From an uncultured Lachnospiraceae bacterium (lineage in GTDB: Bacteria > Bacillota > Clostridia > Lachnospirales > Lachnospiraceae): a DNA stretch of 32,861 bases. Positions 1 to 32,030 of the stretch are shown here, piece by piece. The stretch is from NCBI GenBank assembly GCA_946414825.1, contig CAMKQB010000023.1, positions 1 to 32,861 of the forward strand, read 5' to 3'. The notes beneath the pieces are model-generated. The model saw only the letters and a program-made list of their open reading frames with translations. It made no database searches and was not told where the DNA came from. The first letter of the stretch is position 1. Every line of letters starts with the position of its first letter. A program made the translations under genes and the position numbers.

Positions 1-285
1 CCAACTAGCTAATCAGACGCGGGTCCATCTCACACCACCGGAGTTTTTCACACTGCACCATGCGGTGCTGTGCGCTTATGCGGTATTATCAGTCGTTTCC
101 AACTGCTATCCCCCAGTATGAGGCAGGTTACCCACGCGTTACTCACCCGTCCGCCACTAAGTGATTCAAATGAGTCAATCAGGTGCAAGCACCGTCAATC
201 CTCGGGAGAACCACTCCGTTCGACTTGCATGTGTTAAGCACGCCGCCAGCGTTTATCCTGAGCCAGGATCAAACTCTCAAAAAAA
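1..285 (-). rRNA. rrs: 16S ribosomal RNA, 5' part (gene continues beyond the left edge)
   Basis: The reverse complement carries the universal 16S 5' signature: AGAGTTTGATCCTGGCTCAG lies at 277-258, followed by GCTGGCGGCGTGC and CACATGCAAGTCGAACG, then the V1/V2 variable helices and the conserved GTGAGTAACGCGTGGGTAACCTGCC. The mature 5' end is placed about eight bases upstream of the primer site by analogy with E. coli, so 285 is approximate. Only about the first 285 nt are in the window. The sequence is of clostridial (Lachnospiraceae-like) type. The gene is read leftward out of the window and has its own promoter at 522-550. Confidence 0.97.
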
Positions 286-617: not shown

Positions 618-3287
618 TTACTTCGTTACAAAGGATAGTCCGAAAGCCCCCGGCCCACAACTTATAGCAACCACAGGGCAACTTTGCTGGAAGTAAACTC
701 TTTCAAACTTAACCCTCTTCTCTATCTCATCTCTGATCCAATCAAGTTCCTTTTTGCTAAGTCCTACGTAGTTTATGAAAATAGCAGTATTTTCTACTTT
801 AACCCCCTTTAAGCATTTATCTATATAAAGCCTCCATGCTCTTTCCTTAGTTCCGAAGGCAAAACCAACTGTAGAGATTTTACCTTCCTTCATAAATGTA
901 ACCGGTCTCAGCATCAGAGCCTTCATTATATTTGCTCTTCCTTCACTAGCCTGCTTAGCACGGACCATATAGTCCATGTTGTCAATCATGAAGCTTGCTC
1001 TTATTCTATTGTTTAGCTTGTCCAGTCTTGTCATTATCTCATCAACTGACATTCCAGCCTCTGCCATACGACTTGCAAAGATAGCCATGAGTCCCTGGCT
1101 GCATGACAAAAGTCCACTATCAAATACAGTAACATTTTCAAAGGAGTTGGCAGCTTCAGTTGATATCCCATAGGAGGTACCTTCCAGCTGAGCTGATACA
1201 GATAAATGAATAATGTTATTAGCATTTACCAGTTGCTCTGCAAAGAATGTCTCATAGTCTTCTACACTCGGAGGAATAGGGGAAGCAACATTTGTCTCGT
1301 CCTCCATATATTTTAGAAGTCCGGCAGTATCGATCTCTGTCCCCTCTCTGAAGGTCCCTTCATTTGTTTTAACCTTGTGATTTAAAACTGTAATGTTGTA
1401 CTTGTCCTGTAGAAGCTGTGGAAGATCTGCTGTACTTTCTGTTGTTATCGCTATTCTTCTCTTTCTATGTTTATCATTTATCCAGGCACTATCTGCTTCA
1501 AGCTCGATACCCTCGCTGTCCATTACCTTAACAAGAGCTCTAGGGAGCTGTCTAAAGACTTCGTTCTCGAGATCATTTCCAGATACAGGCTTAACAAGAT
1601 ATCCATTAAATCCTGCTAATGCGTAAAGCGTCCTGTTTTCCTCTCCTGCATTTGCAGTAAGGATAACAATATTCGTTTCTTTGTTCAGTCCACCAGACTG
1701 TTCTCTAATTGCATGGAAGCATTCTATTCCATCCATCTCTGGCATCAAATGATCCATAAAGATAAGATTGTACTTTACTTCAAGAGTTTTCTTAAGCGCC
1801 TCCGCTCCACTCTTAACTGTATCTATCTGAATCTTAGTATCTCTAAGAAGCTTAGTTACTACCAAGAGGTTTGATTCATTATCATCAACAACGAGAATCC
1901 TCGCTTCTGGAGCCTCGAACTTCTGCTTGTAATTAGTTCTATGAGCCAGCTTATGCTTCTTCTCATAGTTGTATTCGCCAAGCTCTTTATCTGAAACAAT
2001 CTTCTGAGGGATTTCTACTATAAATGTAGAACCCTTGGTATATACACTGTTAACTGAAACCTTTCCACCCATCAGGTCGACAAACTGTTTAACAATAGAC
2101 AGACCCAGTCCGGTTCCTTCAATATGTTTATTGCTGGATTCATCAACTCTCTTAAACGCAGTAAATAGGTATGGTATATCTTCTTTCTTAACTCCCATAC
2201 CGGTATCTTCTACCGTGTATATCATGTTGCATATTCCATCCCCTGGCTTCTCACACTCTACAGATAGAACGACTGATCCTTCTTTTGTATATTTGATTGC
2301 ATTATTCAGGAGGTTGATCAGAACCTGTTTGATTCTTACCTCATCACCTTTTAGCTCCTCCGGAATGTCAGGTGCCACATTTATTCTAAAGTCCAGATTC
2401 TTTTCCTGAGCACGTATCCATATCATTCCAACCAGGTCTGACAGCATATTGCTGGTATGATAGTTTTCCAGGAGAATCTTCATATCCCCAGACTGGAACT
2501 TGGACATATCAAGGATGTCGTTAATAGTATTCAGGAGCATTTTACCAGCCGCACGAATATTAACCGCATCCTCAGCTATCTCATCACTGATGTCCTCGCG
2601 CAGGATCATTTCATTAAGTCCGATGATTGTATTGATAGGCGTACGAATCTCATGACTCATACTGGAGAAGAACTTATTCTGTGATGCAACCAGTCCCTCG
2701 ATTTCCTGCTTCTGTTTCTCAGCAACAGCATTTTGCAGCTCGAAAAAATCTATCTGAGTCTTCATTATAGTAGCCACCGCGCCACTAACTAGTATTAATG
2801 TTACAAATGCTATAAGGTATGGCTGAAGCCCTTCGAATTTTAAAACAACATCCGGATAATAATAGGAAATGAGATAGCAAAGAATAGCTACCATTTCCTG
2901 AAAAAGAACGAATATCCACTTAAGGTTTTTGTTACTCATCATATTGTAAATAAAGAGTATGTTGAATATAAACCAAAGCGGAGCATCTCCAAGTATTCCA
3001 CCAGAAGTGAAAAACATAATTGGGAAAAATGAAAACAAAAGGAAGAAAGACAGGATATTAGCTCCGGCATCAATCTTACCAATCTTAAAGGAGATAAATC
3101 CAACTAAGACAACAATAATAAAACTAGCCAGAAAGAGCCAGGTATTGAGTGTTATTCCAACTATTAGAAATCGAGAAATAAGCGAACCCAGTAGGATTCC
3201 ATCGGTAACAAGCATGTTAAATGCAAATCCCCTTTTTCGCATATCTATTTCTTCATTTACAAAATAGCTTTTCAGCTTTTCAAACAT
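618..3287 (-). CDS. Membrane hybrid histidine kinase/response regulator with C-terminal DegV domain
   Basis: 889 aa. Residues about 24-175 form roughly six membrane segments. A short coiled coil leads to HisKA with the phospho-acceptor motif SHEIRTP (His212), then HATPase_c with the N box LINLLNNAIKYT and the glycine boxes DTGMG and GTGLGLSI (about 310-430). A receiver domain follows (about 462-585) with VVDDNESN, phospho-acceptor Asp512 in MDHLMPEMDG and Lys566. Residues 611 to the end match a full DegV fold: TTESTADLP (615-623), the SPIPPS segment, the ligand-loop equivalent LSVSAQLEGTSYG (695-707), FDSGLLS, and the terminal CGPGAFGLSF. DegV proteins bind fatty acids; in the FakA/FakB system FakB presents them for phosphorylation. 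The usual GGR of the YLKKGGR segment is replaced here by SEGR-like sequence. It is last of three signalling genes, 5 nt after the upstream stop, with AGGAG upstream of its ATG. The kinase-DegV fusion is unusual; the ligand is unknown. Confidence 0.92.
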   Translation of the reverse strand: MFEKLKSYFVNEEIDMRKRGFAFNMLVTDGILLGSLISRFLIVGITLNTWLFLASFIIVVLVGFISFKIGKIDAGANILSFFLLFSFFPIMFFTSGGILGDAPLWFIFNILFIYNMMSNKNLKWIFVLFQEMVAILCYLISYYYPDVVLKFEGLQPYLIAFVTLILVSGAVATIMKTQIDFFELQNAVAEKQKQEIEGLVASQNKFFSSMSHEIRTPINTIIGLNEMILREDISDEIAEDAVNIRAAGKMLLNTINDILDMSKFQSGDMKILLENYHTSNMLSDLVGMIWIRAQEKNLDFRINVAPDIPEELKGDEVRIKQVLINLLNNAIKYTKEGSVVLSVECEKPGDGICNMIYTVEDTGMGVKKEDIPYLFTAFKRVDESSNKHIEGTGLGLSIVKQFVDLMGGKVSVNSVYTKGSTFIVEIPQKIVSDKELGEYNYEKKHKLAHRTNYKQKFEAPEARILVVDDNESNLLVVTKLLRDTKIQIDTVKSGAEALKKTLEVKYNLIFMDHLMPEMDGIECFHAIREQSGGLNKETNIVILTANAGEENRTLYALAGFNGYLVKPVSGNDLENEVFRQLPRALVKVMDSEGIELEADSAWINDKHRKRRIAITTESTADLPQLLQDKYNITVLNHKVKTNEGTFREGTEIDTAGLLKYMEDETNVASPIPPSVEDYETFFAEQLVNANNIIHLSVSAQLEGTSYGISTEAANSFENVTVFDSGLLSCSQGLMAIFASRMAEAGMSVDEIMTRLDKLNNRIRASFMIDNMDYMVRAKQASEGRANIMKALMLRPVTFMKEGKISTVGFAFGTKERAWRLYIDKCLKGVKVENTAIFINYVGLSKKELDWIRDEIEKRVKFERVYFQQSCPVVAISCGPGAFGLSFVTK

Positions 3288-3292
3288 ATATC

Positions 3293-6013
3293 CTACTCCT
3301 CTGTTTCGGGACCAAACTCCATTACTTCATCATCTCCCGATGGGGAGAACTCCATAACCTCATCATCATTTGAATCAGCGAACTCTAACACTTCATCTCC
3401 TGATGCTTCGAATTCAAATACTTCTTCATCATCTGATGGTCCAAACTCCATAACCTCTTCATCACTCTCTGATTCTTGAGAGCTATCCTCTTCGGGATGG
3501 GGCTTTCCATACGCTTCAAGGATACCGTCGCTTATCTTCTTGTATTCAGCTAGTACCCTTGAATGATTTTCATCTATATATCTTGTATCAAACTCGTGAG
3601 CCGCATTTTCAAGCTTCATAGCATCCTCTGACAGGTCTCCCGCTCCAACCATCTTGGAAGTACTCTTAGCCGCATGGATTATTATCTCGTAATTCTTCAT
3701 GTCTCTATCATTGTAGAAGGCTCTGAGTTTCTTTCTTTTATCACTAGCTTCCTCTGCGAACTGGATAACGAGCTCATCATAAAGGTCTGTATCTCCACCG
3801 CAGTACACAAGTCCCGCATCCATATCCACGCCAAGTCTTGCCAGTTTATCCTTCACGCTGCTTGGAGGTTCTTCATTATTCTCATCAGCATCATTTTCAT
3901 TTACAACTATATTCTTTTCATCAGATTCTTTTTCCGAAGAACTAAATAATTCTTCCTCAGGCACAAAGGAAATCATGTCTGCAGGAATAACTCTCTTCAT
4001 GGTTCTTTCGAGTTCTTCTATTTCAATCGGCTTACTAACAAATCCATCAAACCCTTCCGAGATAAACATCTGCTTAGCTGAACTCATGGCATTTGCAGTA
4101 AGGGCAACTATAGGGATATCGTGATTCATTCCCTTTACGTCTGCTCGAATCTTCTTCATAGCTTCAACGCCGTCCATACCGGCCATCATATGGTCCATGA
4201 AAATAATGTCATACGCATGGTCTCGGCACATTTCTATAGACTCCGCTCCAGAGGTGGCTGTGCTGACTTCCATTCCGTACTGTTTTAAGATGCCCTTTGC
4301 AACCACCAGATTCATAGGTTCATCATCCACAACCAGAGCGTGAACACCCTCCAGTCGAATAGCAGAATTACTGGTGTCCCTATCGACTATGCTGCTATTA
4401 AGAGAAGCCACAAATGGAAATACATAGAATGGTTTCTTTATTATTCTAATCTTGGTTCCATCAGAAATATCAAAATCAGAATCGGATACTATCATTACAA
4501 CAACTTTCTTTGCAAACTCATCTATAACACTCTGGTCCTTCATATATTCATCCTCCCCAACAAGGAGATGTGTCAGTTCAACTGTCTCTGAGAGTTTCTT
4601 CAGATTATCTACATTTTCAACTCTGTGCAGTTCTAGTCCTAGTCCATCACTAAGTGACACTGATTGATAAATGAAATATTCTCTGACCATAGGATTCTTT
4701 AATCCAAAGGTGTTGAGATAAGCTCCTACCTTAACACTCTTCACATCATTTACAGATGCGCATGGGTCATCTTCTACAACCTTCTGTGGAAGGCTTACTC
4801 TAACTGTAGTTCCTTCATCCTTCTTGCTGGTGATAGTCATAAAGCCACCAAGCAGTGATACGAAACCAGCTACAATTGATAGACCAAGCCCAAGACCACT
4901 TCCAGTACGAGTTCTACCCGAATCTGTCTGATAGAATCTCTCGTATACCTTCTCAAGCTCCTCTTCCGTCATACCAATACCTGTATCGGAAACCTCTATA
5001 CAGAGATTAACGCCATAGGACTGCCTCTCAGAATGAAGCTTAAGATATACACCGCCCTCAGTAGTGTACTTAATTCCATTTGATACAAGAGCCTTAATGA
5101 TCTTCTTGAGTTTAGTAATATCTGTATTCATTACCGCAGGAATAGTTGGATCGATATCTATTATTAGCTCTACTCCGTCCTTCTTCATCTCACGAAAATC
5201 ATTCATCAGATCGTTCATCGCGGAGGACAGCATATAGTCTTCAAGATTGCTGACTATATTACCTCTATCTATTTCAGAGAAGTCCAGTATATCTCCTATC
5301 TGTTCTGATACTCTTCTACCAGCCTGTCGAACAGCCTCTAGATTTTTCTTATTATCTTCATCTTTTTCCTTATCTATGCAAATGCCAGTCAGACCGATAA
5401 TTGCATTTACAGGAGTTCTAATTTCGTGAGAAACATTTGCCAGAAAATCATTTAGGCGGTTGGTGGATTCGGTCAGCTTATCAATCTCAACCTGAGATGC
5501 AGCCTCAACCTCTTCCCATTTATTGATAATAGTTTTAAGGAAATATGCAAGCATAGTGATTACAGAATAATGCATAATTATTCTGCATATTAAAAGGATG
5601 TCGAACTTACCTCCATCCATAGCATATTTTGCAAGATCATATGTCATAGATATGTAGTAGGTTATCTGACACAGAGTAATCAGTGGCTTAATCTCTGTCA
5701 TGATGAAGAGCATCATGATTGCGGCCATAACAATAGCAAGATCATAGGTACTTGTCATATGCACACCATAGATGAAATAATTTATCATCATGATGAATGC
5801 AATCACCCATAATCTCTGATTACTGGTAAATATTGATTTAATATGTATACCCCAGCATATACCAACAAAAGCGCCTATTACAAAAAGCACCCATTTATCC
5901 CATCCAAGGAGAAATGTAATAACTACATGCATTATTGCGAAAATGGTATAGCCCAAAAGCAGAACTAGATTACCAGTTCTGAACATATCATTTTTCTCTT
6001 TATTTGCCCCCAT
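3293..6013 (-). CDS. Membrane hybrid histidine kinase with receiver, Hpt domain and acidic repeat tail
   Basis: 906 aa. About five or six membrane segments occupy residues 12-165. HisKA has SHEIRTP with His196; HATPase_c carries NGIKYT, DTGIGM and GSGLGLGLSI (to about 410). Residues about 425-540 read like a worn receiver: the strand pattern and the ending IRIIKKPF remain, but no acidic pocket is clear. A complete receiver follows (555-675) with VVDDEPMN, phospho-acceptor Asp607 and Lys661. An Hpt domain follows with HAAKSTSKMVGA, His780 being the likely phospho-acceptor. The order HK-REC*-REC-Hpt is BarA-like and would support a His-Asp-His-Asp relay. The C-terminal 50 residues are five imperfect copies of an acidic unit around EVMEF (about 853-901). 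It lies between the GGDEF gene (15 nt upstream) and the DegV-fusion kinase, so the three are probably co-transcribed. Confidence 0.93.
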   Translation of the reverse strand: MGANKEKNDMFRTGNLVLLLGYTIFAIMHVVITFLLGWDKWVLFVIGAFVGICWGIHIKSIFTSNQRLWVIAFIMMINYFIYGVHMTSTYDLAIVMAAIMMLFIMTEIKPLITLCQITYYISMTYDLAKYAMDGGKFDILLICRIIMHYSVITMLAYFLKTIINKWEEVEAASQVEIDKLTESTNRLNDFLANVSHEIRTPVNAIIGLTGICIDKEKDEDNKKNLEAVRQAGRRVSEQIGDILDFSEIDRGNIVSNLEDYMLSSAMNDLMNDFREMKKDGVELIIDIDPTIPAVMNTDITKLKKIIKALVSNGIKYTTEGGVYLKLHSERQSYGVNLCIEVSDTGIGMTEEELEKVYERFYQTDSGRTRTGSGLGLGLSIVAGFVSLLGGFMTITSKKDEGTTVRVSLPQKVVEDDPCASVNDVKSVKVGAYLNTFGLKNPMVREYFIYQSVSLSDGLGLELHRVENVDNLKKLSETVELTHLLVGEDEYMKDQSVIDEFAKKVVVMIVSDSDFDISDGTKIRIIKKPFYVFPFVASLNSSIVDRDTSNSAIRLEGVHALVVDDEPMNLVVAKGILKQYGMEVSTATSGAESIEMCRDHAYDIIFMDHMMAGMDGVEAMKKIRADVKGMNHDIPIVALTANAMSSAKQMFISEGFDGFVSKPIEIEELERTMKRVIPADMISFVPEEELFSSSEKESDEKNIVVNENDADENNEEPPSSVKDKLARLGVDMDAGLVYCGGDTDLYDELVIQFAEEASDKRKKLRAFYNDRDMKNYEIIIHAAKSTSKMVGAGDLSEDAMKLENAAHEFDTRYIDENHSRVLAEYKKISDGILEAYGKPHPEEDSSQESESDEEVMEFGPSDDEEVFEFEASGDEVLEFADSNDDEVMEFSPSGDDEVMEFGPETEE

Positions 6014-6028: not shown

Positions 6029-7807
6029 TTAAGCTCTGTCACTTTTGACTGGCTTATGATATTTCTTTCTAAGTGTCACGAGCTCAAGTATACGATTCAC
6101 TCTGACCTTCAGAAGCTCTGGTGTAAAAGGTTTCCATATGAAGTCCAGCGCTCCCTTTTCCATTCCTTCTATTTCAAGTCCTTCATTTTCTCCTCCTGTC
6201 AGGAGAATAATAGGTATGGTCGCAAGATCTCCACCCAATTCCTTCAGCTTATCCATAACCTCTAAGCCGCTCATTCCTTCCATTTTAATATCTAGAAGTA
6301 TGAGGTCAGGAACCTTTTCAGCTATACTTATTTCCTTAAGGAATTCCTCACCGGAAGAATATGTATGAACTGTAAGTCCTCTATGGATAAGGACACCACT
6401 AGCGACATCAAGATTCACGTCATCGTCATCAACAACAGCTATTTCAGCTTCGCTGTCCTCGAATCCAATTCCAGGATTATTTCTTACGTACTCAAAGTCA
6501 TACTCTATATCGAGTCTAGGATTATCACCTTCATCCCAGGTTTTAATTATTCCCTCAGACACTACAGAGACAAACTTCTCTCTGATATCCGTAAGAAGAA
6601 CAAAATACTGGTTGTATCGGCTTCTGGTTAGCATATCGGATTTTCTGAGTGACTCTCTGATATGATTTCCAAATTCATCGCAGGCATCCTGATAAACCTC
6701 ATTGGACATGCTTTCCGGCTTACTAAGTGTAAAGAGAACCTTACTACAATTGATATTGTTTCGAATAAAATATCGAGTAGCAAATCTGAACACATGTGAA
6801 AATGCTTCCATATCGAGCTGGAGAGCTACATTTGTGATATTTCTCTCTCCAAGTATGTCAGATATACTTTTGATATCCATAACGGAGTCCGTTTCCTCAT
6901 CACTAATAAGATCAGATGAGTATAAGGAATATCCGTGCTTACCATTCTTCTTAACGATATAGAGACATTTATCCGCAAGCTTAAGGAGCGAAGTATAATC
7001 ATTTCCATGCTTAGGAACTGCAATCGCGCCAATCGAAGTACCGAGAGGAATATTCATATCCTCTCCCATAAGTTCCTTTGCTTTACTGACAAGCTGCTCA
7101 TTAAGCCGCTTTGTGATAGACGCAACCTCTTCCTCTTCCTGAACACCTAAGCAAAACGCCGCAAATTCATCTCCTCCAAGTCTTCCAATCTTGCTGCCTT
7201 GAGGAACTGTTTCCTTTATAAGATTCGCAAATGTTATAAGTACCTTGTCTCCCATCTCATGGCCGTATAGGTCATTTACCAGCTTGAAGGAATCCAGGTC
7301 GATCATCATTAAGCAACCTGTACTCTTGGTACACATTTTTGAAAATTCAACACTTGTCGCACCCTTGTTCAGAAGTCCTGTCAGTTTATCTGTAGTAGCT
7401 TCACTTTTCAGACTCTGCATCTCCGTCTGCATCGAGATAACATTATCTATTCGACGAAGTAAAACCTCCGGATTAAATGGCTTACGGATGTAGTCAGATA
7501 CTCCCATCTCAAAACCCTTTGTCTCGCTTCCTGAATTCTCGTCTGCTGTAAGGAATATAACTGGAGTCTCTGAACGGTCATGCTCCTTCTCGTATTCTCT
7601 CAAACGTTTAAGTGTCTCAAATCCATCCATTTCCGGCATCTTGATATCCAGAAGTATAAGATCTGGCGCACCATTTTCCGATATATAATCAATAAGAGCC
7701 CTGCCTGATTTAAGCGCAGTGACCCTCATATTATTCTTACTAAGTATATTTCCCGCCATCTTAAGATTAGATGTATCATCATCTACAACCATTATCCATT
7801 TTGCCAT
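6029..7807 (-). CDS. Double-receiver diguanylate cyclase (REC-GGDEF-degenerate GGDEF-REC)
   Basis: 592 aa from the ATG at 7807. An in-frame ATG 15 nt upstream (7822) is possible, but the Shine-Dalgarno GGAGGAG lies inside that extension, 6 nt before the second ATG, so 7807 is preferred. Receiver 1 (about 4-120) has VVDDD and phospho-acceptor Asp54 in LILLDIKMPEMDG, with Lys109. A canonical GGDEF domain has intact RLGGDEFA (211-215); no RxxD inhibitory site is visible just before it. Residues about 315-435 keep the GGDEF fold pattern with the signature decayed to RSRYNQYFVLL. A second receiver (about 456-580) has VVDDDDVN, Asp506 in LILLDIKMEGMSG and a WKPF motif. The predicted reaction is 2 GTP to c-di-GMP in the cytoplasm, gated by phosphorylation. 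As first gene of the signalling operon it is the probable phosphorelay output for the two kinases behind it. Confidence 0.93.
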   Translation of the reverse strand: MAKWIMVVDDDTSNLKMAGNILSKNNMRVTALKSGRALIDYISENGAPDLILLDIKMPEMDGFETLKRLREYEKEHDRSETPVIFLTADENSGSETKGFEMGVSDYIRKPFNPEVLLRRIDNVISMQTEMQSLKSEATTDKLTGLLNKGATSVEFSKMCTKSTGCLMMIDLDSFKLVNDLYGHEMGDKVLITFANLIKETVPQGSKIGRLGGDEFAAFCLGVQEEEEVASITKRLNEQLVSKAKELMGEDMNIPLGTSIGAIAVPKHGNDYTSLLKLADKCLYIVKKNGKHGYSLYSSDLISDEETDSVMDIKSISDILGERNITNVALQLDMEAFSHVFRFATRYFIRNNINCSKVLFTLSKPESMSNEVYQDACDEFGNHIRESLRKSDMLTRSRYNQYFVLLTDIREKFVSVVSEGIIKTWDEGDNPRLDIEYDFEYVRNNPGIGFEDSEAEIAVVDDDDVNLDVASGVLIHRGLTVHTYSSGEEFLKEISIAEKVPDLILLDIKMEGMSGLEVMDKLKELGGDLATIPIILLTGGENEGLEIEGMEKGALDFIWKPFTPELLKVRVNRILELVTLRKKYHKPVKSDRA

Positions 7808-7857
7808 ATATAACTCCTCCATGGACTATTTTTAAACGAATAAAACACATATACCGA

Positions 7858-17231: not shown

Positions 17232-17260
17232 TTGATACAGAACCCTTTAAGTGATATACT
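17232..17260 (+). promoter_or_regulatory. Promoter of the sensor/GGDEF gene
   Basis: Plus strand: -35 TTGATA (17232-17237), 17-nt spacer, -10 TATACT (17255-17260). Transcription should begin near 17267, leaving a 30-nt leader. The TTG of the -35 could be mistaken for a start codon of the downstream gene. Confidence 0.75.
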
Positions 17261-17297
17261 ATTTGCTGGGGATGGGGTTAAAACAGGAGCGTTACTT

Positions 17298-19211
17298 ATG
17301 GAAACAGATAAAAAGATAGTTGTACTATGCACTTCAAGAATATACGAGCCTCAAATACATGGTTTCATCGTAAGACTAAATGAACTACTTACCTCCAGAG
17401 GCTACAATTTATTCGTTTTTTCAATCAATTCAGATATCTACTGGGAAGAGGATCGTCAGGCTACAGAAAAGTATGTCTTCGACCTTATTCCGTACGACTT
17501 TGTTCAGTGCATTATTATAATGGACGAAAAGATCAAGAGTCATAAGATTGCCAATAAAATAATTGCCAAATCAAATGAGAAGAATATTCCTGTCGTAATC
17601 GCTGATGGACATTACGACAACACTTCTACTATCAACTTCGACTATGAACAGGGCTTTGAACTGGTAGTTCGTCACGTAATTGAATATCACCACGTTAAAA
17701 AACCACATATGATGGCGGGACAGCCAGATAATGAATTCTCTAATAGGAGAATCGACGTTTTCAAGAAGGTGCTTGCCGATAATGGAATACCTTACGACGA
17801 TAGCATGATAAGCTTCGGTTATTTCTGGGCAGATCCATGTCGTAAAGCTACTGAAGAGATACTAAGTAGAGATGAGCTTCCGGAAGCAATCATTTGCGCA
17901 AATGATGTAATGGCAATCACGGTCTCAGAGATGCTATCTGAGTCAGGATATAAGGTTCCTGACGACGTAATAGTTACCGGATTTGATGGATACGACGGAA
18001 TATACTTTACATCTCCTAAGATCACTACTGCTTCCTGCGATATCATTTTACTTGCTGAAGCAACCGCTGAGGAAGCCTTTCAGGTAATGGAAAATCACAA
18101 GGAGCAGCACCATAAAATAGTTCCTGAATTCATATCTAACGAATCCTGTGGATGTCATGAATACACTGCTCATACAAAGCTACTTAGGGATTGGTTTAGA
18201 GAGAGCTTCTCGAGACATAATGATGATAACCGCGTACTTCAGCAGATAACTTCATCCATGCAGACAAGTACGACTCCCGGAGAAATGGTTCAAAATATGG
18301 AAAGCTACAAAACAGAGAATGTTCTATGTGCAATCGACAGGAACTGTTTTGATGTAGATAATAACTATTTTACAGACGAGGCTCATGATAATCCAACCAA
18401 GGATTTCATTATAATATATGATTCCGACTACACCGAGAATTACAAAAAAGATACATTTGCTATTCCAGAGCCACAGCCTGGATTTACCGAGGATGTTCTG
18501 ACGCCTGCTATAAGAGACCGAATGTTTGAGCTTCTGGAGAGTGGGTACCCACTCATCTTCAACTCTCTCGACTTCATGAACAGGCCCTTTGGATTTATCT
18601 GTTACCACTTTAATGATTATCTGATATCGAACTACTCAAATATAGTTAATGCAACAAATGCTATCAGTATAGGAGTCGGTGGATACGTTAATATCCAGTA
18701 TCAGAGAACGCTTCTTGAGAGAATGGACGAAATGTACCGTCACGATTCACTTACCGGTCTCTTCAACAGAATAGGCTTCCTGAATATATTCAAACGAACC
18801 ATCAAGAAGCCTGAACACCGCGACAAACCTATTACTGTTATCATGTCCGACCTCGATGGTCTGAAATATATAAATGATAGATTTGGTCATGCAGACGGCG
18901 ACAATGCAATCTATAGAGTTTCAAATGCACTCCAGACATCAGTTCCCGAATCAAGCCTTTCAGCTAGATTCGGTGGCGACGAAGTCTTCTCAGTAATATT
19001 TGGAGAATGCGATCCCGACCAGATCATAAAAAAGATAAACAAAAACCTTGAAGAATACAATATAGACTCAGGTAAAGCATACGACATCTCAACCAGCTGC
19101 GGTTATATAACCCTGACACTAGACGACACCTTCGATCTGACACAGGCAATCAAGGATGCTGATGAAAAGATGTATGCAGTTAAAAATAGTAAGACTTATC
19201 CGAGGGGATAA
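17298..19211 (+). CDS. Cytoplasmic LacI-type ligand-binding domain fused to GGDEF (putative diguanylate cyclase)
   Basis: 637 aa from the ATG at 17298, which has AGGAG 8 nt upstream; the longer frame from TTG 17232 starts in the promoter -35 and is rejected. Residues about 5-290 form a LacI/GalR-type periplasmic-binding-protein fold (ICANDVMAITVSEML, PDDVIVTGFDGYDG, then CGCH), but there is no N-terminal helix-turn-helix, signal peptide or membrane segment. Residues about 300-470 form an unassigned middle region, possibly GAF-like. The C terminus (about 478-630) is a GGDEF domain: HDSLTGLFNR, SDLDGLKYINDRFGHADGD and ARFGGDEVF, with Val replacing the final Phe. It probably makes c-di-GMP in response to a small ligand. 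Being divergent from cellobiose 2-epimerase suggests a beta-glucan or mannan sugar, which is inference. Confidence 0.9.
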   Translation: METDKKIVVLCTSRIYEPQIHGFIVRLNELLTSRGYNLFVFSINSDIYWEEDRQATEKYVFDLIPYDFVQCIIIMDEKIKSHKIANKIIAKSNEKNIPVVIADGHYDNTSTINFDYEQGFELVVRHVIEYHHVKKPHMMAGQPDNEFSNRRIDVFKKVLADNGIPYDDSMISFGYFWADPCRKATEEILSRDELPEAIICANDVMAITVSEMLSESGYKVPDDVIVTGFDGYDGIYFTSPKITTASCDIILLAEATAEEAFQVMENHKEQHHKIVPEFISNESCGCHEYTAHTKLLRDWFRESFSRHNDDNRVLQQITSSMQTSTTPGEMVQNMESYKTENVLCAIDRNCFDVDNNYFTDEAHDNPTKDFIIIYDSDYTENYKKDTFAIPEPQPGFTEDVLTPAIRDRMFELLESGYPLIFNSLDFMNRPFGFICYHFNDYLISNYSNIVNATNAISIGVGGYVNIQYQRTLLERMDEMYRHDSLTGLFNRIGFLNIFKRTIKKPEHRDKPITVIMSDLDGLKYINDRFGHADGDNAIYRVSNALQTSVPESSLSARFGGDEVFSVIFGECDPDQIIKKINKNLEEYNIDSGKAYDISTSCGYITLTLDDTFDLTQAIKDADEKMYAVKNSKTYPRG

Positions 19212-19247
19212 AAAAATGTCATGGGTTATTCCCATGACATTTTTATT
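19212..19247. terminator. Bidirectional terminator overlapping the YfhO-like stop codon
   Basis: An 10-bp stem, ATGTCATGGG with CCCATGACAT, has a 5-nt loop and is flanked by A-run and T-run sequence on the two sides, so it can end transcripts from both converging genes. The stop codon of the minus-strand gene (19228-19226) sits in the loop and its last four sense codons (Met-Ser-Trp-Glu) form one arm. Confidence 0.88.
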
Positions 19248-22200
19248 TCATGCTTACCGGCTGGAATATCAAGTGTAACTCCACCCATGCTGTCACTATA
19301 TGGCACTTCTACTCCGTCAATATACACTGTCCATCCCTTGTAGGCTGGAACTGGAATCATCAGTTCAGCTGCTTCTTTTGAATCATAATGACCTACCAAA
19401 GTATCATCTTCTAAACTGTAGTCTGATAAGGAATGATTCTTAACATATTCCGAAAGTAAAGCTAGTGCACTCTCATCAAGTACGGCTACTTTGATATCTT
19501 CCTTATTAAACCCATCTGGGATTTCGATTTGAGCATATATAAAGCTCCCTTTACCTTTCGAATATCCCGCATACTTTACTTCCCTATTTGTCGCCACATA
19601 TATATCACCCTTTATATCATCAGCTATAATAGCATCCAGCTGCGTGAAGCTATATTCATTCAGCGGTGCCGTATTATAATCCAAATCAATTATAGTATAT
19701 AAATCCTTTCCTACAAGAGCCTGACACAGTTCATTTTGCGCTTCTATGGCAGTAATCTTTCCGCCCTTCTTACCATATAGTTTTCCTCCATATGTTTCTC
19801 CAGCATCCTTCGGCAGAATAATACCTGCTGACGCCGCATAAGGATCTCTATATAAATATATATTTTCAGATTTCTCTACACGCTCATAGTAATAAGGAAC
19901 TTTACTAACATCACCACTACCCTCTGCCAGGAAATAATGAACATTAAGGAAAAGGTTCGCTAGCGGATTTCCCACTGCATAGTTGATATTATTATTCTGT
20001 GTTTCCACATTATAAGTTCTCGAAACCTTTGCCTGTTCCTGTTGAAAGGTAGATGTGAAAGCGCTAACGGAATTAGTATTAACCATTTTCGCTGTATTGA
20101 AGTTGTCTGTATTGAGAACCTCTGTTCTAAGCAGAGCATCTGACTTCAAATTATATTTTTCCGACAAATCTCTCATCACAATCACACCATCAGGAGAGAT
20201 AAAAGTTGAATCATCATTCGCTCCTACAGTATGAACCCCAGATACAACAAGCTCTATCATTAGAATAATTAATAGCGCGCGGGTACATTTATACTTATTA
20301 CCTTCCCTGTTACCATAGAAAATCGTTACAAGGTAAGCAATAATGAAGAGAGCTGACAGTATAAGCTTGTTTGTCTCAAAATTATTATTAATAATTAGCA
20401 CAAAAAGTGTAATACCTGCCATAGAAGCAAATGCTATAACAGCCTTAGTCTTATATATTTCTTTGTAATTAATAATCACATCATAGAATAGTGTAACCAC
20501 TAGGAATATATAGAATATTGAGAATCTGTTAGGCACAAGATTCTGGAAATGGAAGCCGTGTAGCGCAAAATTCAGAAGCTGATTTCCAAAAGCAAAATAA
20601 ATGATAAATATCAGCGCTACTCTCTTGATTCTTTTCTTAAGCGGAATACCGCTGATTGCCATATATACCGGAATAATCAAAAACGGAAGCAGTCCCACAT
20701 AAGCATTAGCCTGTGTCCAGTCACTAGTAACTAGAATCACAGGGTATTTAATATCTATATCGTTTATATTTTTCAGTAAACTCTGAGTGAATATCTTCAG
20801 TGTATTAGATGCATTTCCATCCGCCTCATTGTAACCAGTATTCATAACGGTCTGATAATACGGAATAAGCTTGAATAAGGACACTCCTGCAGCAGCAATA
20901 GAACACAGCGCGAATCTCACACCCTTTCTAAGAAAGTCCTTTCCATCTTCGAAATCCAGCGTAAAGAAATAAAGTAGAAGTAATTCACACATGATAAATG
21001 CATAATATGGATTAACAAACATGCAAAGCGCCAGAAGAATTATGTAAACTATCTTCTTGTTTAGGTACACTAGTCTCTCCATCACTAGAAGCATAATTGG
21101 AAGCACTGTAGCATATACCATAAACTCACAGAAATGGTAATATACTAGAATATATGACGATAGGCTATAAGCCATCGATATAGGCACAAGCTTCAGCGCA
21201 GTCTTCTCCATATTCTTGGCATTTGGTCTATGTATCAAATAAAAAATAATCGCCGGACCAACTGTAAGGAACTCAAGCAAATATACCAGATTATATAGAA
21301 CGAGACTGTTATTTACATTTGATAATAAAAGTATCAATCTATATGGAAATACAAAAGTTGCCAGACTCGAGAGAAAGGTAGTGCCACCACTGCCCATTCC
21401 TAGTGTGAAATCAAGCACAGGCATAGTACCATCTCTCAAATCCCAGATTTCCTTTACAAGACCAGGGTATGATATAAGATACCCATCTGATCTAACAAAG
21501 GAATCTTCTCCAAAAGGAACCATATTATACGCTATTACCACTATTAGATATAGCAAAAGATTGATAATTATAGAGAAATAATACACTCTTCTTTCAGTCA
21601 GCCAGTCCACTATACTATCACTTAGTTTATTGGTCTTCTCATCATCATCTATATTCTTATCTTTCTTTTCAGCTTTCTTTCTACGTTTGAAAACGAATAA
21701 ACCTACAAACATAAGTAACGCTATTAAGGAAACAACAGTTCCGTGTAGAAATGCCACTGGCGAGTACTTATATTCATCCCCTTCTTTAAAGTTTTCGATA
21801 TAAGAAACTTCATCCTCAAAGAACTTGAAGCTTTGAATTCTTTCAGCATCTCCTTTAGGAACAAAGCAACGAGACAAATCATTAGGAATCAGAAGAATAC
21901 TGTCATCCTTTGTGTTCAACTCATCTCCAATAGACTCAATTTTAAGAGAATAATAATCACGAGTTATGTCAACCTTGATATCGTTAAGCTTATTATCAAA
22001 TTCATCATACTTGTCCCTATCCAGGTAAGCAGATTCTCGACCGTTAAGTATCCTTTTCAGCTTGTTATTCGGGCAGACACATTTTATCTCATACCGCTCT
22101 TCTGGATATAACTTTCCCAGCTCATATACACCCTCAAGACTAGTATAATAATCCCCCTCTTGATTGAAGGATAGATACACTATCATTTTGTCTCCATTAG

Positions 22201-23533
22201 TTGGATCTGTTGGATCTGGAATGATACTGAGATTATCCTCAGCGAAAACAAATATATCCTCAATTCCAGTCATCTCCTTAACCAAAGAATTCATTTTCTC
22301 ATAAGGATACTCTGTTCTAAGTCTACTCTTTAATACACTAGATGGAACAACATAAGCAGTAGGTGCGTATATATCTATAAGTCTTTCAGTCACAGGAGTA
22401 CCATAAGACTTTACATTATCATAATAATCATATTCCGAACTTTTCAGAACAATATCAGTAGATAGAACTTTTATATCTAATTTATTATATCTATCCTCGC
22501 TGAAGATAGATGCCAAAAATACAGTAGCTACAGCTATAACAGATACTCCTATTAAGATAAACTTCTTATTATTTTTCTTTTTTGTATCTGTTCTCCTCTC
22601 GCAATTCTTACTGTTAAGTAAAAATGAAACAAAATATATAAATAAGAATGCAAGAATAAAGCTAAACATCTTATATCTATCATTTGTGAAAAGGAACTGC
22701 ATGATATTCAGACTATACTCCTTATGGAAGAAGGAACTAGAAATATTATTAAGAACGAAAGGCATAGCAAGTCCAATTGCGATCAGGTCTGAAATCAGCT
22801 TTGGAATAAGCATTCTAATAAACAGCTTAAAATCTTTAAAACTTAGAACCAGCATGTAAAAACACATAAATATAAATATCGGAATTGCAATTTGAATGCT
22901 ACAAATAGTAGCAACCGCTAGAGTAATAATATATAGAAACGATTTGCCATTTTGCAGTAATTTCCTAAGCCCAAGAATTACTAAAGGAAATAATGCAACT
23001 GAGATGGCATTTATAGAGTTGATTTTAGAATCAGGAATAATAAAAGAAACGGAATAAAGCGTGGATAAGATAATATAAATAGCTTTATTTATATCTCTTG
23101 AAGTTTTTTCACTTGAATCATTTCCAGAAGCTGCAGTAGTTGTATATGTAATACTGAACATCATATATGAAAAGAGTCCAGCCAAACCAGCTTCAAAGAT
23201 AAATAGAATACTAGAAAAAGTAGATAGACTCGATTTTGGAAGAAGTAAATAGATAAAAACTAGTGGATTAGCAAAATAATATGTAATAACAGTCGAGAAG
23301 TCATATCCCACGCCACTCCTAGTACTAAAATAAAAGAATCGTCCTTGTCTAGCGCTGATCCAGAACTCATATAAAAATTCTTTAAGTTCTTCTGTACCAC
23401 TATATAAGAAGATATCATATCCTCCGAATGGAGGAATCTTTTTAATAGCACAAAAAAAAGTAATTAATATTACTGGAATAAAAAATGCTAATAAGTATTC
23501 ATTAATTTTTAATCCACTCAGCTTTTTCAACAC
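19226..23533 (-). CDS. Giant double YfhO-like membrane protein
   Basis: 1435 aa, against roughly 850-900 for ordinary YfhO. The first half has an N-terminal block of membrane helices (about 10-345), an extracellular stretch (about 345-595), another helix (about 597-615) and a charged linker. The second half (about 650-1435) restarts with a similar pattern. PPFGGYD plus RQGRFFYFSTRSGVGYDFS (34-80) resembles VPFGEDS plus RDGTMPVLDFTLGMGSGGT (672-718), each leading to a 'YFANPLVFIYLLLP' or 'FVFPYRLILLL' helix. The C terminus (VPAYKGWTVYIDGVEV...IPAGKHEIKMSW) is the typical YfhO end. YfhO proteins are polytopic GT-C-like proteins; in Bacillus one is implicated in lipoteichoic acid glycosylation. 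The start is GTG (23533) with AGGAG 6 nt upstream. It lies directly after the major pilin gene; a role in surface glycosylation is inference. Confidence 0.85.
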   Translation of the reverse strand: MLKKLSGLKINEYLLAFFIPVILITFFCAIKKIPPFGGYDIFLYSGTEELKEFLYEFWISARQGRFFYFSTRSGVGYDFSTVITYYFANPLVFIYLLLPKSSLSTFSSILFIFEAGLAGLFSYMMFSITYTTTAASGNDSSEKTSRDINKAIYIILSTLYSVSFIIPDSKINSINAISVALFPLVILGLRKLLQNGKSFLYIITLAVATICSIQIAIPIFIFMCFYMLVLSFKDFKLFIRMLIPKLISDLIAIGLAMPFVLNNISSSFFHKEYSLNIMQFLFTNDRYKMFSFILAFLFIYFVSFLLNSKNCERRTDTKKKNNKKFILIGVSVIAVATVFLASIFSEDRYNKLDIKVLSTDIVLKSSEYDYYDNVKSYGTPVTERLIDIYAPTAYVVPSSVLKSRLRTEYPYEKMNSLVKEMTGIEDIFVFAEDNLSIIPDPTDPTNGDKMIVYLSFNQEGDYYTSLEGVYELGKLYPEERYEIKCVCPNNKLKRILNGRESAYLDRDKYDEFDNKLNDIKVDITRDYYSLKIESIGDELNTKDDSILLIPNDLSRCFVPKGDAERIQSFKFFEDEVSYIENFKEGDEYKYSPVAFLHGTVVSLIALLMFVGLFVFKRRKKAEKKDKNIDDDEKTNKLSDSIVDWLTERRVYYFSIIINLLLYLIVVIAYNMVPFGEDSFVRSDGYLISYPGLVKEIWDLRDGTMPVLDFTLGMGSGGTTFLSSLATFVFPYRLILLLSNVNNSLVLYNLVYLLEFLTVGPAIIFYLIHRPNAKNMEKTALKLVPISMAYSLSSYILVYYHFCEFMVYATVLPIMLLVMERLVYLNKKIVYIILLALCMFVNPYYAFIMCELLLLYFFTLDFEDGKDFLRKGVRFALCSIAAAGVSLFKLIPYYQTVMNTGYNEADGNASNTLKIFTQSLLKNINDIDIKYPVILVTSDWTQANAYVGLLPFLIIPVYMAISGIPLKKRIKRVALIFIIYFAFGNQLLNFALHGFHFQNLVPNRFSIFYIFLVVTLFYDVIINYKEIYKTKAVIAFASMAGITLFVLIINNNFETNKLILSALFIIAYLVTIFYGNREGNKYKCTRALLIILMIELVVSGVHTVGANDDSTFISPDGVIVMRDLSEKYNLKSDALLRTEVLNTDNFNTAKMVNTNSVSAFTSTFQQEQAKVSRTYNVETQNNNINYAVGNPLANLFLNVHYFLAEGSGDVSKVPYYYERVEKSENIYLYRDPYAASAGIILPKDAGETYGGKLYGKKGGKITAIEAQNELCQALVGKDLYTIIDLDYNTAPLNEYSFTQLDAIIADDIKGDIYVATNREVKYAGYSKGKGSFIYAQIEIPDGFNKEDIKVAVLDESALALLSEYVKNHSLSDYSLEDDTLVGHYDSKEAAELMIPVPAYKGWTVYIDGVEVPYSDSMGGVTLDIPAGKHEIKMSWE

Positions 23534-23667: not shown

Positions 23668-24150
23668 TTACTGAACAGCTGTACCTGTAAAGCTTGAAGG
23701 AGCAGTCTTTCCTGTAGCTTTTCCATCAACAGAAGTAATTACCCAATCAGAACCATCGAATGAACACACAACTTCTTTTCCATTCTGTGAAGTAAATGTC
23801 AAACCAGAAACTCCACTAACAGTAAACGCTGCATGACTAGCATTTGTACCTGAAGTTGACTTAACTCCACAATAAACTGTACCAGCTGCTGAAACATTAG
23901 TAGGTGAAACAATTGCATTAACGTATGTAAGATCTGGAGCCTTAGGAGCTGTCTCACCCTTAGCATACTGCTCTGTTTCATATGCCTGATATGCTGTTAG
24001 TATTGAATGAGCTTCCTCAGCATACTGACCTTCTCTAGCCTTATCGATGTATCCAAGAAGCGCTGGAACAAGGATTGCAGCTAAGATAGCTAAAATAACA
24101 AGTACCACGATAAGTTCTACAAGTGTAAAACCTTTATTATTCTTCTTCAT
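23668..24150 (-). CDS. Major type IV pilin (type IV prepilin)
   Basis: 160 aa. The N terminus MKKNNKG|FTLVELIVVLVILAIL is a textbook class III signal: short basic leader, cleavage after Gly7, Phe at mature +1 and Glu at mature +5 (Glu12), followed by the hydrophobic helix and AREGQYAEEAHSILTAYQAYETE. The globular part is small, Thr/Ser/Val/Gly-rich and contains two cysteines (Cys94 and Cys129) that could form a disulfide. It has its own promoter, a long leader with a stem-loop, AAGGAGG before the ATG and a strong terminator, as expected for a highly expressed subunit. It would be assembled by the upstream PilB/PilC/PilMN/PilO system. Confidence 0.95.
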   Translation of the reverse strand: MKKNNKGFTLVELIVVLVILAILAAILVPALLGYIDKAREGQYAEEAHSILTAYQAYETEQYAKGETAPKAPDLTYVNAIVSPTNVSAAGTVYCGVKSTSGTNASHAAFTVSGVSGLTFTSQNGKEVVCSFDGSDWVITSVDGKATGKTAPSSFTGTAVQ

Positions 24151-24182
24151 AAGTCAAATCCTCCTTAATATAAATTCTTCAT

Positions 24183-24209
24183 TTGTTTGATCTTCGATCT
24201 ATCAAACAA
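24183..24209 (-). other. Stem-loop in the pilin mRNA leader
   Basis: TTGTTTGAT (24183-24191) pairs perfectly with ATCAAACAA (24201-24209) around a 9-nt loop, near the 5' end of the predicted pilin leader (transcription start near 24227). There is no U-tract. An mRNA-stabilising role is plausible for an abundant structural protein but not shown. Confidence 0.5.
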
Positions 24210-24233
24210 CTCTCTCATGAATAAGTTAACTTG

Positions 24234-24262
24234 ATTTTAACAAGCGAATTCTCATTTTGCAA
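24234..24262 (-). promoter_or_regulatory. Promoter of the major pilin gene
   Basis: Minus strand: -35 TTGCAA (24262-24257), 17-nt spacer, -10 TAAAAT (24239-24234). The leader would be about 75 nt. It lies in the 366-nt gap after pilB, which otherwise holds only the weak hairpin at 24440-24469 and unassigned AT-rich sequence. Confidence 0.6.
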
Positions 24263-24439
24263 GCACTTATGTAAACCACCCCGTTAAATCCACTAAACGC
24301 ACAATAATTCACAAACTAATTTGTGCAACCTGTATAATCCGCACCCCTTCTTCTACGAATTCATTCAATTTTGGTCATAATCTTTTAAATTCATCCACGA
24401 GCAAGAGTTATTTTATTAATATAATTGTAACAATTTCAG

Positions 24440-24469
24440 TGAAAATAGCTTCGAAAAACGGCTATTTCA
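24440..24469 (-). terminator. Weak hairpin downstream of pilB (possible terminator or processing site)
   Basis: TGAAATAGC/GCTATTTCA pairing of 9 bp with one bulged base, about 48 nt past the pilB stop. It is not followed by a convincing T-run, so termination would be inefficient. Confidence 0.3.
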
Positions 24470-24516
24470 CACACTTTTCACAGTTCTCACACCTTCTATT
24501 CACAAAAATCGAGGAT

Positions 24517-26202
24517 TTAGTCGTAATATGCAACCTTGACAAGTTCTTCAACTGTTGTAAGGCCCTGTTCAATCAGTTCCATACAGCTCTCTTTCAGGGT
24601 AAGCATACCCAGTTCCTGGCGAGCATATGTCTTGATATCTTCCGCAGATTCATCGTCTGATATCATCTTACGAACCTTTTTATCTATAGGCAATATCTCA
24701 TGGATAGATATACGACCTCTATAACCGGTTCCATTACATTTCTTGCATCCGACCTTGTGCATTACTCTAGGAAGAGGCTTTCCAACTATTCTTTGTTCTT
24801 CTGCAGTCATCTCTCCCCAGGTTCCACAATCCGGACAAACCTTACGTACAAGTCTCTGAGCTATGATACCAACAAGTGAGTTGGCCAGCATATATGGCTC
24901 GATACCCATATCTATAAGTCGTGTAACTGATGATGCAGCATCATTAGTATGAAGTGTAGAAAGAACCAGGTGACCAGTTATAGCTGCTCTAACTGATATG
25001 GACGCAGTTTCAGCATCACGGGTCTCACCCAGCATGATAATATCCGGATCCTGACGAAGCAGTGCCCTAAGTCCTACTTCGAAGGTAAGACCAGCGGTAT
25101 TATTAACCTGCATCTGATTCAGCTTTGGCAGGTTTTTCTCTACCGGATCCTCTATAGTTGATATATTCACCGCTCTCTGAGACAGCTCAGAAAGTATCAT
25201 ATACAAAGTGGTAGACTTACCAGAACCTGTAGGTCCTGTTACATATACTATACCGTTAGGTGACTGGAGCATCTGGCTGACTATCTGATAATTACGATCA
25301 TTCATACCAAAAGTTCCACTATGATCAATTGTAGCCGCAGATGCTAGAAGTCTAAGAACCGCCTTCTCACCAAATACAGTAGGAATAACGGATACTCTGA
25401 CATTTATAGGTGTACCCTCTACATTAGTCTTAAAGTGACCATCTTGAGGAATACGACGTTCAGCGATATCCAGATCACCAATAATCTTTACACGAGCTAT
25501 TAGAGAATTGTGGATATTCTTAGGTAATGTCATGAAGTCTACTATTACACCATCCATACGCATACGAACTGATGTATGTTTCTCAAAAGGCTCTATATGA
25601 ATATCTGAAACATTTGAGTTATAAGCACGTACAACAAGAGAATTCAGCAAATTGATAATAGGTGTATCATCATCAGCATCTTCTACATTTACTTCGATGA
25701 TATCATCTTCAGCTAGACTTGACTTAGCAGCTTTATCAGCAGCCTTCTTCGCTGATACTTCTGAATAATAATACTGAATAGCATTATCAAGAGGCTGCTT
25801 CTCTGTCAGTTCTATCTTAAGATCGGCACCTGTTACCTGTCGTATATCTTCCAAACCATAGAAGTTAAGAGGATCATTTGTCAGAAGATAAAGTACTCCA
25901 TCCTCTATTCTATACGCCATCATTCCATACTTTTCAGCAAGTGGCTGTGGTATAGTTTCAACCGCATTTATATCAACAGCCAGGTCGGCTATATTTACCA
26001 CATCATACTGAAGTCTTCGACCAAGTGCTTCCAGCATCTGTTTTTCAGTAATGATATTCATCTCTATCAGAGCGCCACCAAGTCGAACACCTTCATGTGT
26101 CTTGGTATACTCAAGAGCTGCTCCTATATCATCGTCCGTAACATAACCGAATTCCTTCAGGACATCTCCTATACGTATGTTCTTGTTAGACCTCATCTCC
26201 AT
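24517..26202 (-). CDS. pilB: Type IV pilus assembly ATPase PilB (GspE family)
   Basis: 561 aa cytoplasmic hexameric ATPase powering pilin polymerisation. The N-terminal MshEN/T2SSE_N-type region (about 1-150; RIGDVLKEFGYVTDDDI, then RLGGALIEM) can bind c-di-GMP in some homologues. The catalytic core has Walker A GPTGSGKS (323-330), Asp box STIEDPVE, Walker B PDIIMLGETRD (386-396) and His box TGHLVLSTLHTN (409-420). A zinc-binding Cys tetrad is formed by CPDC (456-459) and CKKC (486-489). Length is normal. It lies 14 nt after the PilO-like gene. No PilT retraction ATPase is in the window. Confidence 0.96.
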   Translation of the reverse strand: MEMRSNKNIRIGDVLKEFGYVTDDDIGAALEYTKTHEGVRLGGALIEMNIITEKQMLEALGRRLQYDVVNIADLAVDINAVETIPQPLAEKYGMMAYRIEDGVLYLLTNDPLNFYGLEDIRQVTGADLKIELTEKQPLDNAIQYYYSEVSAKKAADKAAKSSLAEDDIIEVNVEDADDDTPIINLLNSLVVRAYNSNVSDIHIEPFEKHTSVRMRMDGVIVDFMTLPKNIHNSLIARVKIIGDLDIAERRIPQDGHFKTNVEGTPINVRVSVIPTVFGEKAVLRLLASAATIDHSGTFGMNDRNYQIVSQMLQSPNGIVYVTGPTGSGKSTTLYMILSELSQRAVNISTIEDPVEKNLPKLNQMQVNNTAGLTFEVGLRALLRQDPDIIMLGETRDAETASISVRAAITGHLVLSTLHTNDAASSVTRLIDMGIEPYMLANSLVGIIAQRLVRKVCPDCGTWGEMTAEEQRIVGKPLPRVMHKVGCKKCNGTGYRGRISIHEILPIDKKVRKMISDDESAEDIKTYARQELGMLTLKESCMELIEQGLTTVEELVKVAYYD

Positions 26203-26216
26203 AAGCTAGTTTCCTC

Positions 26217-27134: not shown

Positions 27135-27149
27135 ATCTGCTCCCCCTTC

Positions 27150-28619: not shown

Positions 28620-28633
28620 ACTTTTACCCTTTT

Positions 28634-29842: not shown

Positions 29843-29928
29843 ATCCTAACTCCATTCCCACATTTAAAATAGATATTATAGGCCATTATCATTTTAATCC
29901 CTATAATAAATTATGTCAACCATTGCTG

Positions 29929-30793: not shown

Positions 30794-30805
30794 TTTTCCC
30801 CTATT

Positions 30806-31498: not shown

Positions 31499-31499
31499 T

Positions 31500-32015: not shown

Positions 32016-32030
32016 CTGTATCACCTTTAC

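Follow-up and report, generated by a model that had tools for sequence, protein, structure and literature searches.

RpfC, a protein with sensor, histidine kinase (HK), receiver (REC) and Hpt domains, and RpfG, a REC-HD-GYP protein, relay a fatty-acid signal to cyclic di-GMP (c-di-GMP), as described in the available parts of two papers (PMC3749722, PMC5391125). RpfC detects the diffusible signal factor (DSF) via a 22-residue N-terminal region (PMC5391125, in part). The present analysis concerns a three-gene operon of an uncultured Lachnospiraceae bacterium, in which a DegV domain forms the C terminus of a hybrid histidine kinase. The operon lies on a stretch of 32,861 nucleotides (assembly GCA_946414825.1, contig CAMKQB010000023.1, positions 1 to 32,861), which is referred to as the window.

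A pairing like that of RpfC/RpfG in Xanthomonas, an HK-REC-Hpt gene next to a REC-HD-GYP gene, occurs in several relatives (L137, L138, L140, L144, L146 and L157) but not in the window, which encodes a REC-GGDEF-REC protein without HD-GYP. The operon further departs from RpfC/RpfG by its second kinase and by DegV, a domain of 280 residues. By analogy, the DegV module may on paper work like RpfC/RpfG, with an unrelated receptor. The DegV domain shares with the FakB/DegV family (PF02645) the predicted fold over its whole length and a mostly hydrophobic tunnel, but differs in being fused to or encoded with kinases and in having mostly changed residues at the positions of R173, R205, H270 and W180. 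The HisKA-HATPase-REC core is that of BarA, TorS and LuxQ, the top NCBIfam matches, but the scores are far below the curated cut-offs and the receiver is followed by DegV. The structural match to DhaQ (PDB 2iu4) is weak, with a template modeling (TM) score of only 0.54 in Foldseek. We take DhaQ to be an EDD-fold co-activator, a kinase-subunit relative used in regulation, whose ligand and partner differ.

The sequence-only reading of the window had named no described system of this type, a view that a large characterized family would contradict. The family, whose size and conserved operon that reading had not recognized, is large, but no description of a DegV/Fak domain joined to kinases or to c-di-GMP was found in the open-licence PubMed Central literature, whose long hit lists were inspected in part. 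The available parts of the CREST paper (PMC3146951) and of the FpsR paper (PMC12688256) mention DegV solely as separate genes.

Domain order and distribution of the DegV kinase

The DegV-kinase gene is a continuous open reading frame (ORF) with zero internal stops in its translation. The layout HisKA-HATPase-receiver-DegV without a frameshift, as proposed from the letters of the window, was borne out by this unbroken frame of 889 amino acids and by Pfam, and the landmarks given for it (His212, Asp512 and DegV from 611 to 889) agree with the Pfam matches (Table 1). The catalytic set of a hybrid kinase (H212, N329, D361, G363, G365, G391-G395, D512 and K566) was invariant in the 41 full-length sequences aligned. 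By its intact H, N and G boxes and its receiver Asp and Lys, the protein is, on sequence grounds, a hybrid histidine kinase. The closest three relatives share 90 to 93% identity with it across the 889 residues. The proposed search of the DegV part against PF02645 gave a match well above the cut-off (143 bits versus 27, E 1.4e-41) and over almost the entire profile (positions 1 to 279 of 280), and the match to NCBIfam TIGR00762 scored 155.7 against a cut-off of 99.7. The full-length structure model had a predicted TM score of 0.39, so the relative arrangement of the domains is not fixed by the model. The linker between receiver and DegV is probably flexible, as judged from its low pairwise identity and from the model.

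Table 1. Features of the three-gene operon in the window
Feature	Coordinates	Strand	Basis
Hybrid histidine kinase HisKA-HATPase-REC-DegV, 889 amino acids	618..3287	minus	ORF and Pfam; identical domain order in 76/80 fetched relatives
N-terminal membrane part, residues 1-180	2748..3287	minus	Six helices in structure model; unconserved
HisKA/DHp, residues 203-267; phospho-acceptor His212 at 2652-2654	2487..2681	minus	Pfam; His212 invariant, n = 41
HATPase_c, residues 314-429; N329, D361-G363-G365, G391-G395	2001..2348	minus	Pfam; residues invariant, n = 41
Receiver (Response_reg), residues 464-577; Asp512 at 1752-1754; D468, D469, K566	1557..1898	minus	Pfam; invariant, n = 41
Receiver-DegV linker, residues 578-610	1458..1556	minus	39% pairwise identity over 578-608; predicted local distance difference test (pLDDT) <50 at 590-607
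DegV/EDD domain, residues 611-888	624..1457	minus	Pfam, AlphaFold2 (AF2), Foldseek, residue tables
Partner hybrid kinase HisKA-HATPase-REC-Hpt, 906 amino acids	3293..6013	minus	Pfam; such a gene at -1 in 70/80 loci
Hpt of partner kinase, residues 747-807, motif HAAK	3593..3775	minus	Pfam; local profile
REC-GGDEF-REC protein, 597 amino acids, GGDEF motif at residue 216	6029..7822	minus	Pfam; motif

Contigs of GTDB genomes were scanned with an alignment of 25 DegV domains as the query. The scan returned 374 stretches, 358 of which were confirmed, and the best 80 of these 358 were examined, with domain orders of the fetched loci assigned by local profiles. The order HisKA-HATPase-REC-DegV was found in 76 of the 80 loci. 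The other four are two genes cut by contig ends (L044 and L072) and two seemingly split genes (L077 and L083), in which the HisKA piece sits in the ORF immediately preceding. That the architecture arose through misassembly or artificial fusion, or that DegV was matched by chance, is practically out of the question. The assembly is split into 100 contigs, one of which is the window, and this contig terminates in a 16S rRNA gene 333 bases past the DegV-kinase gene, both of which would suit an artefact, but the E value of the DegV match and the recurrence of the architecture speak against it, the more so as the 76 loci include L070, L081 and L098, whose records are not marked as metagenome-assembled genomes (MAGs). 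The joining of two genes or a frameshift, named in the sequence-only reading as grounds for abandoning it, was thus checked and rejected on the unbroken ORF and the repeated architecture across GTDB relatives. The 16S rRNA gene is represented by its 5' part (window 1-284, minus strand), downstream of the DegV-kinase gene, and the contig ends inside it.

Within the genus, the DegV part gave 39 matches of at least 219 bits in 37 of 61 genomes, and the next best match had 60 bits. These matches lie in open frames of 890 to 973 amino acids in 34 cases and in shorter frames (220 to 823 amino acids) in five. In the family sample (299 genomes, about one per genus; E <= 1e-40), 106 genomes had any match to the DegV part, and the signalling clade, counted by score, frame length and neighbourhood, was present in 51 genomes at 66 places, the window included. 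In the class sample (391 genomes, E <= 1e-40), frames of at least 700 amino acids were found only in the own family and in family f45 (three genomes). In the phylum sample (398 genomes, E <= 1e-58), five genomes had a match; the own-family frames measured 724 to 1,145 amino acids and the two matches outside the own family were frames of just 286 and 301 amino acids. The thresholds of the class and phylum scans exclude weaker matches. Among the best 80 of the 358 stretches, the carriers were Lachnospiraceae, Eubacterium, Ruminococcaceae, Saccharofermentans and others, many of them from rumen or other ruminant gut samples. The records of Lachnospiraceae bacterium G41, Ruminococcaceae bacterium YAD3003 and AB4001 carry no MAG label; these three may be isolates. 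The module is real and is widespread in gut and rumen bacteria.

The kinase pair, its Hpt and its probable output gene

A second set of 71 loci (L115-L185) was taken from the own-family and class scans. Without five unlinked stand-alone DegVs (L126, L128, L182, L184 and L185), it comprises 66 loci. It overlaps partly with the GTDB set (contigs of equal length in L115 and L037 and in L127 and L081), and the two sets are therefore not independent. The DegV proteins of the 66 loci have the order HisKA-HATPase-REC-DegV in 46 cases and the same order plus a C-terminal Hpt in 10; the rest are HATPase-DegV (two, L134 and L179), shortened (two, L145 and L178), DegV alone (four), DegV-Hpt (one) and N-terminal DegV (one).

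A readable kinase gene at position -1 was present in 56 of the 66 loci, the other 10 being incomplete or without one. Among these 56 loci, the Hpt was on the partner only in 42, on the DegV protein only in 10 and on both in none, so that a pair carries at most one Hpt. The 10 cases on the DegV side are nine HK-REC-DegV-Hpt proteins and the DegV-Hpt of L160. The remaining four loci had the Hpt on neither protein: in L152, L158 and L163 a separate Hpt-bearing protein is encoded close by, and in L148 the gene is split, with the Hpt partner at -2. In the GTDB set, the Hpt was on the partner for 70 of the 76 complete genes, and six had no readable partner. A full Pfam scan of L120 and L122 found the DegV-Hpt and partners of 676 and 686 amino acids without Hpt. 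The local Hpt profile was built from five of these sequences, and the Hpt His was aligned in all 148 Hpt stretches found with it. In Pfam, the Hpt of the partner kinase in the window scored 22.6 bits, slightly below the cut-off of 24.6. From this complementary distribution, a single relay seems to serve both kinases.

The gaps between the genes of the window are 15 bases (6029-7822 to 3293-6013) and 5 bases (3293-6013 to 618-3287). The DegV-kinase gene is usually the last in an operon of the order [REC-GGDEF-REC, often with HD-GYP]-[kinase-REC-Hpt]-[kinase-REC-DegV]. In the 80 GTDB loci, position -1 was occupied by HisKA-HATPase-REC-Hpt in 70 and by a contig edge or fragment in 10. The intergenic distance to the partner kinase was -22 to +25 nucleotides in 81 of 87 measured gaps. 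A GGDEF and/or HD-GYP protein stood at -2 in 60 of the 80 loci (REC-GGDEF-REC-HD-GYP 32, REC-GGDEF-REC 20, REC-GGDEF 5, REC-HD-GYP 2, HD-GYP 1; other or nothing 20). When the neighbours of 101 loci were clustered, the second-kinase cluster was found at 92, the output cluster at 67 and the next cluster at 22. Near the 66 loci of the second set, the outputs were GGDEF with HD-GYP (4), REC with GGDEF (9), REC with HD-GYP (13), REC only (18) and none or a contig edge (22). From this tally, c-di-GMP is therefore a common, not a universal, end point.

The REC-GGDEF-REC protein of the window is the probable output of the relay. It has no RxxD motif in residues 131-300; RxxD is the inhibitory-site motif of GGDEF proteins. 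A second GGDEF protein in the window (17232-19211, plus strand, 659 amino acids) combines a periplasmic-binding-protein domain with GGDEF. A type IV pilus-like cluster (23668-32819) encodes pilin-like N_methyl proteins, a T2SSE ATPase with an MshEN domain, T2SSF, a weak PilM match and a prepilin peptidase N-domain. MshEN is a c-di-GMP-binding domain, and the cluster near the operon is a possible c-di-GMP target. Between these two lies a gene for a 1,435-residue protein (19226-23533, minus strand) with a YfhO membrane-protein match across residues 654-1298.

Fold and pocket of the DegV domain

The domain model proposed in the sequence-only reading was built and yielded a confident predicted DegV fold (AF2, mean pLDDT 92.9). 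The best Foldseek match of this model was 2dt8 (E 1.8e-25, TM 0.86), and FakB1 (5uto) matched with a TM of 0.85, both over the whole length; across the highest-ranking solved structures of DegV and FakB1, the TM was 0.80 to 0.87. For the comparison of residues, FakB1 numbering was transferred by alignment to PDB 6mh9, and 128 fused relatives were compared with 28 unlinked or PDB DegVs, the outlier SA_L193 being left out.

The carboxylate network of FakB consists of Thr62, Ser95, Ser171 and His270, according to the part of the source available (PMC8892158). The window has Pro, Gly, Ala and Ser at these positions and lacks the network; the column of S95 is uncertain in the window and may be G703 or the preceding Glu. 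At position 270, Asn (106) and Ser (17) predominate among the 128 fused domains, whereas His is found in 23 of the 28 references. Ser or Thr at position 62 is kept in 48 and Ser at position 95 in 27 of the 128; Ser171 is scarce in the references too (2/28). In each of the 16 linked variants, position 270 is Asn, position 95 is Ser and position 62 is Ser or Thr.

FakB Arg173 is required for phosphorylation and Arg205 for docking to FakA and to the membrane, as stated in the available part of PMC9136124. The window counterparts of FakB1 T62, R173, R205 and H270 are P670, Q779, F811 and S876, and it thus has neither arginine. Position 173 is Gln in 82 and Arg in 26 of the 128 fused domains and Arg in all 28 references. 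The altered GGR segment that had been noticed in the window is therefore real and clade-wide; in the set of 129 fused domains, the Arg173 position is Gln in 83, among them the window, and still Arg in 26. Position 205 is hydrophobic in 88% of the fused domains, whereas 26 of the 28 references have Arg or Lys there. The Trp180 position is hydrophobic in 14% of the fused domains versus 89% of the references, and the Leu184 position in 49% versus 100%. DegV as a partner of FakA is not favored, because most members have changed docking and phosphorylation residues. The genome has, at other places, a FakA-like gene and a DegV that stands alone, which leaves it a way to fill the carrier role.

Four of the five tested tunnel positions have remained hydrophobic in the fused domains (121 in 100%, 162 in 99%, 191 in 88% and 271 in 88%); the window has Thr797 at position 191. 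The clade has thus lost most of the residues of a carrier and kinase substrate and kept a mostly hydrophobic pocket with an altered head end. With its carboxylate-binding positions altered, the domain may hold a different acyl ligand or no ligand at all. A DegV domain without ligand could act as a scaffold, keeping the Hpt or the pair of kinases in place, which we consider unlikely. Newly conserved positions such as R205 to Phe and I211 to Trp (97/129) could form a docking face, the carboxylate positions are changed, and DegV stays beside the partner kinase regardless of fusion, all of which would suit a scaffold; but the tunnel is still largely hydrophobic, the whole length of the confident model can be matched to DegV structures with bound ligand, and a complete 280-residue binding fold exceeds the needs of docking.

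Place of the DegV domain in signalling

Mean pairwise identity in the 41 full-length sequences was 22% in the membrane part, 86% in DHp, 78% in HATPase, 70% in REC, 39% in the linker and 54% in DegV. Invariant columns numbered 0 of 180 in the membrane part and 26 of 278 in DegV, and the membrane part matched no Pfam family above its cut-off. Sensing by the membrane part is not favored on these two grounds, and this part is likely an anchor. DegV, being better conserved than the variable membrane part, is therefore the better candidate for the signal input.

The position of DegV varies. In L180, L181 and L183, a stand-alone DegV abuts an HK-REC-Hpt gene without space for a first kinase; the arrangement of L181 was found in one of four genomes of its genus, L181 itself. 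In L160, DegV is fused to Hpt beside an HK-REC gene, and in L152 it is N-terminal of the kinase. L148, classified as DegV alone, resembles a split kinase-DegV gene. The HATPase-DegV proteins of L134 (5790-8375, plus strand) and L179 have no recognizable HisKA or REC; the N-terminal part of the L134 protein resembles that of the second kinase, and this type is probably a degenerate variant.

In a first tree of 112 rows, the hybrids did not form one group and three changes were needed with hybrids as the label; a very long stand-alone row, SA_L193, was paired with L131. In a second tree, the long rows SA_L193, SA_L186, SA_L192 and L125 were dropped and L148, L180, L181 and L183 were counted with the hybrids, and the 82 signalling DegV rows were split from 26 unlinked or PDB DegVs at 100/100. 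The kinase-linked stand-alone DegVs L180, L181 and L183 lay between the unlinked and the fused DegVs in the first tree (branches 91/99 and 93/100). This suggests, with moderate support and an assumed tree root, that association with the kinase came first and fusion later.

The sequence-only reading had offered two roles for DegV, a lipid sensor that feeds the phosphorelay or an output that is switched by phosphorylation. In the latter case, phosphorylation of the receiver would open or close the lipid pocket, and the kinase would control the uptake, storage or delivery of fatty acids. An intact receiver precedes DegV in 76 of 80 and in 46 of 66 loci, plus 10 in which Hpt follows DegV, and the spacing from the receiver Asp to DegV is about 90 residues in nearly all GTDB loci, both of which would suit an output. 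The role is nevertheless distinctly improbable: DegV also occurs N-terminally, stand-alone or on Hpt, the residues of FakA catalysis and docking (R173 and R205) are mostly changed, as are W180 and L184 in the membrane-unloading helix, the linker is variable and modeled with low confidence, and a dedicated output gene is often nearby. An input fits the varied position of DegV and the frequent separate output gene better than an output does. As for the sensor, the input part of the claim is favored by the same placements, changed FakA residues and separate output gene, but with the carboxylate residues altered the ligand need not be a fatty acid.

The reading we lean towards, without strong conviction, is a phosphorelay of two kinases, often ending in c-di-GMP, in which DegV senses a ligand and serves as the input. 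The three genes would form one phosphorelay module, in which the membrane-anchored HK-REC-DegV and the HK-REC-Hpt share the single Hpt. The shared Hpt would hand phosphate to a REC protein, which in the window is REC-GGDEF-REC and would alter c-di-GMP. The DegV domain would be a descendant of the fatty-acid-carrier family that departed from the fatty-acid-kinase pathway. An acyl-type ligand most likely occupies its pocket on the cytoplasmic face, and the loaded state of the domain would regulate the kinases.

Several observations weigh against this reading. A domain that follows a receiver is in many cases an output, and the N-terminal DegV comes from one locus (L152) in a genus represented by a single genome. 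A c-di-GMP-type REC protein (GGDEF and/or HD-GYP) is near only 26 of the 66 loci. An extra Hpt-bearing gene lies within four genes of the pair in L116, L120, L122, L142 and L166 (5/56), and likewise near L048 and L052 in the GTDB set; "one Hpt" is therefore true of the pair, not of the whole neighbourhood. Nine of the 10 HK-REC-DegV-Hpt proteins belong to one clade of the first tree, which makes the Hpt counts phylogenetically dependent, and a divergent Hpt was possibly missed in the partners of L158 and L163 (802 and 812 amino acids). In the pocket, Arg173 is retained in 26 of 128 domains, and V181, in the membrane-inserting helix, is hydrophobic in 98% of the fused domains versus 57% of the references, which speaks against a simple loss of membrane contact. 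At A158 of the tunnel, 111 of 128 domains have Thr or Ser, a more polar spot, and free fatty acid may not be held, because the carboxylate positions are largely changed.

A wider reading is possible and is put forward only tentatively. The module may represent a widespread, undescribed class of acyl-lipid receptors in gut and rumen Lachnospiraceae and their relatives, in which the carrier was first stand-alone beside a kinase-REC-Hpt, was then fused to a second kinase and today conveys an acyl signal of the cytoplasm or membrane to c-di-GMP via a two-kinase, one-Hpt relay. It would be a Firmicute counterpart of DSF/Rpf with an unrelated receptor.

Carrying fatty acids is the known role of DegV proteins; the clade described here has been drawn into phosphorelays of histidine kinases across many genera of the gut and rumen. 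The question of the sensor can be tested directly with one small, well-folded domain. To our knowledge, few c-di-GMP-related signals are known for these bacteria. If the domain is a lipid receptor, the lipid or fatty-acid state would be tied to c-di-GMP in them.

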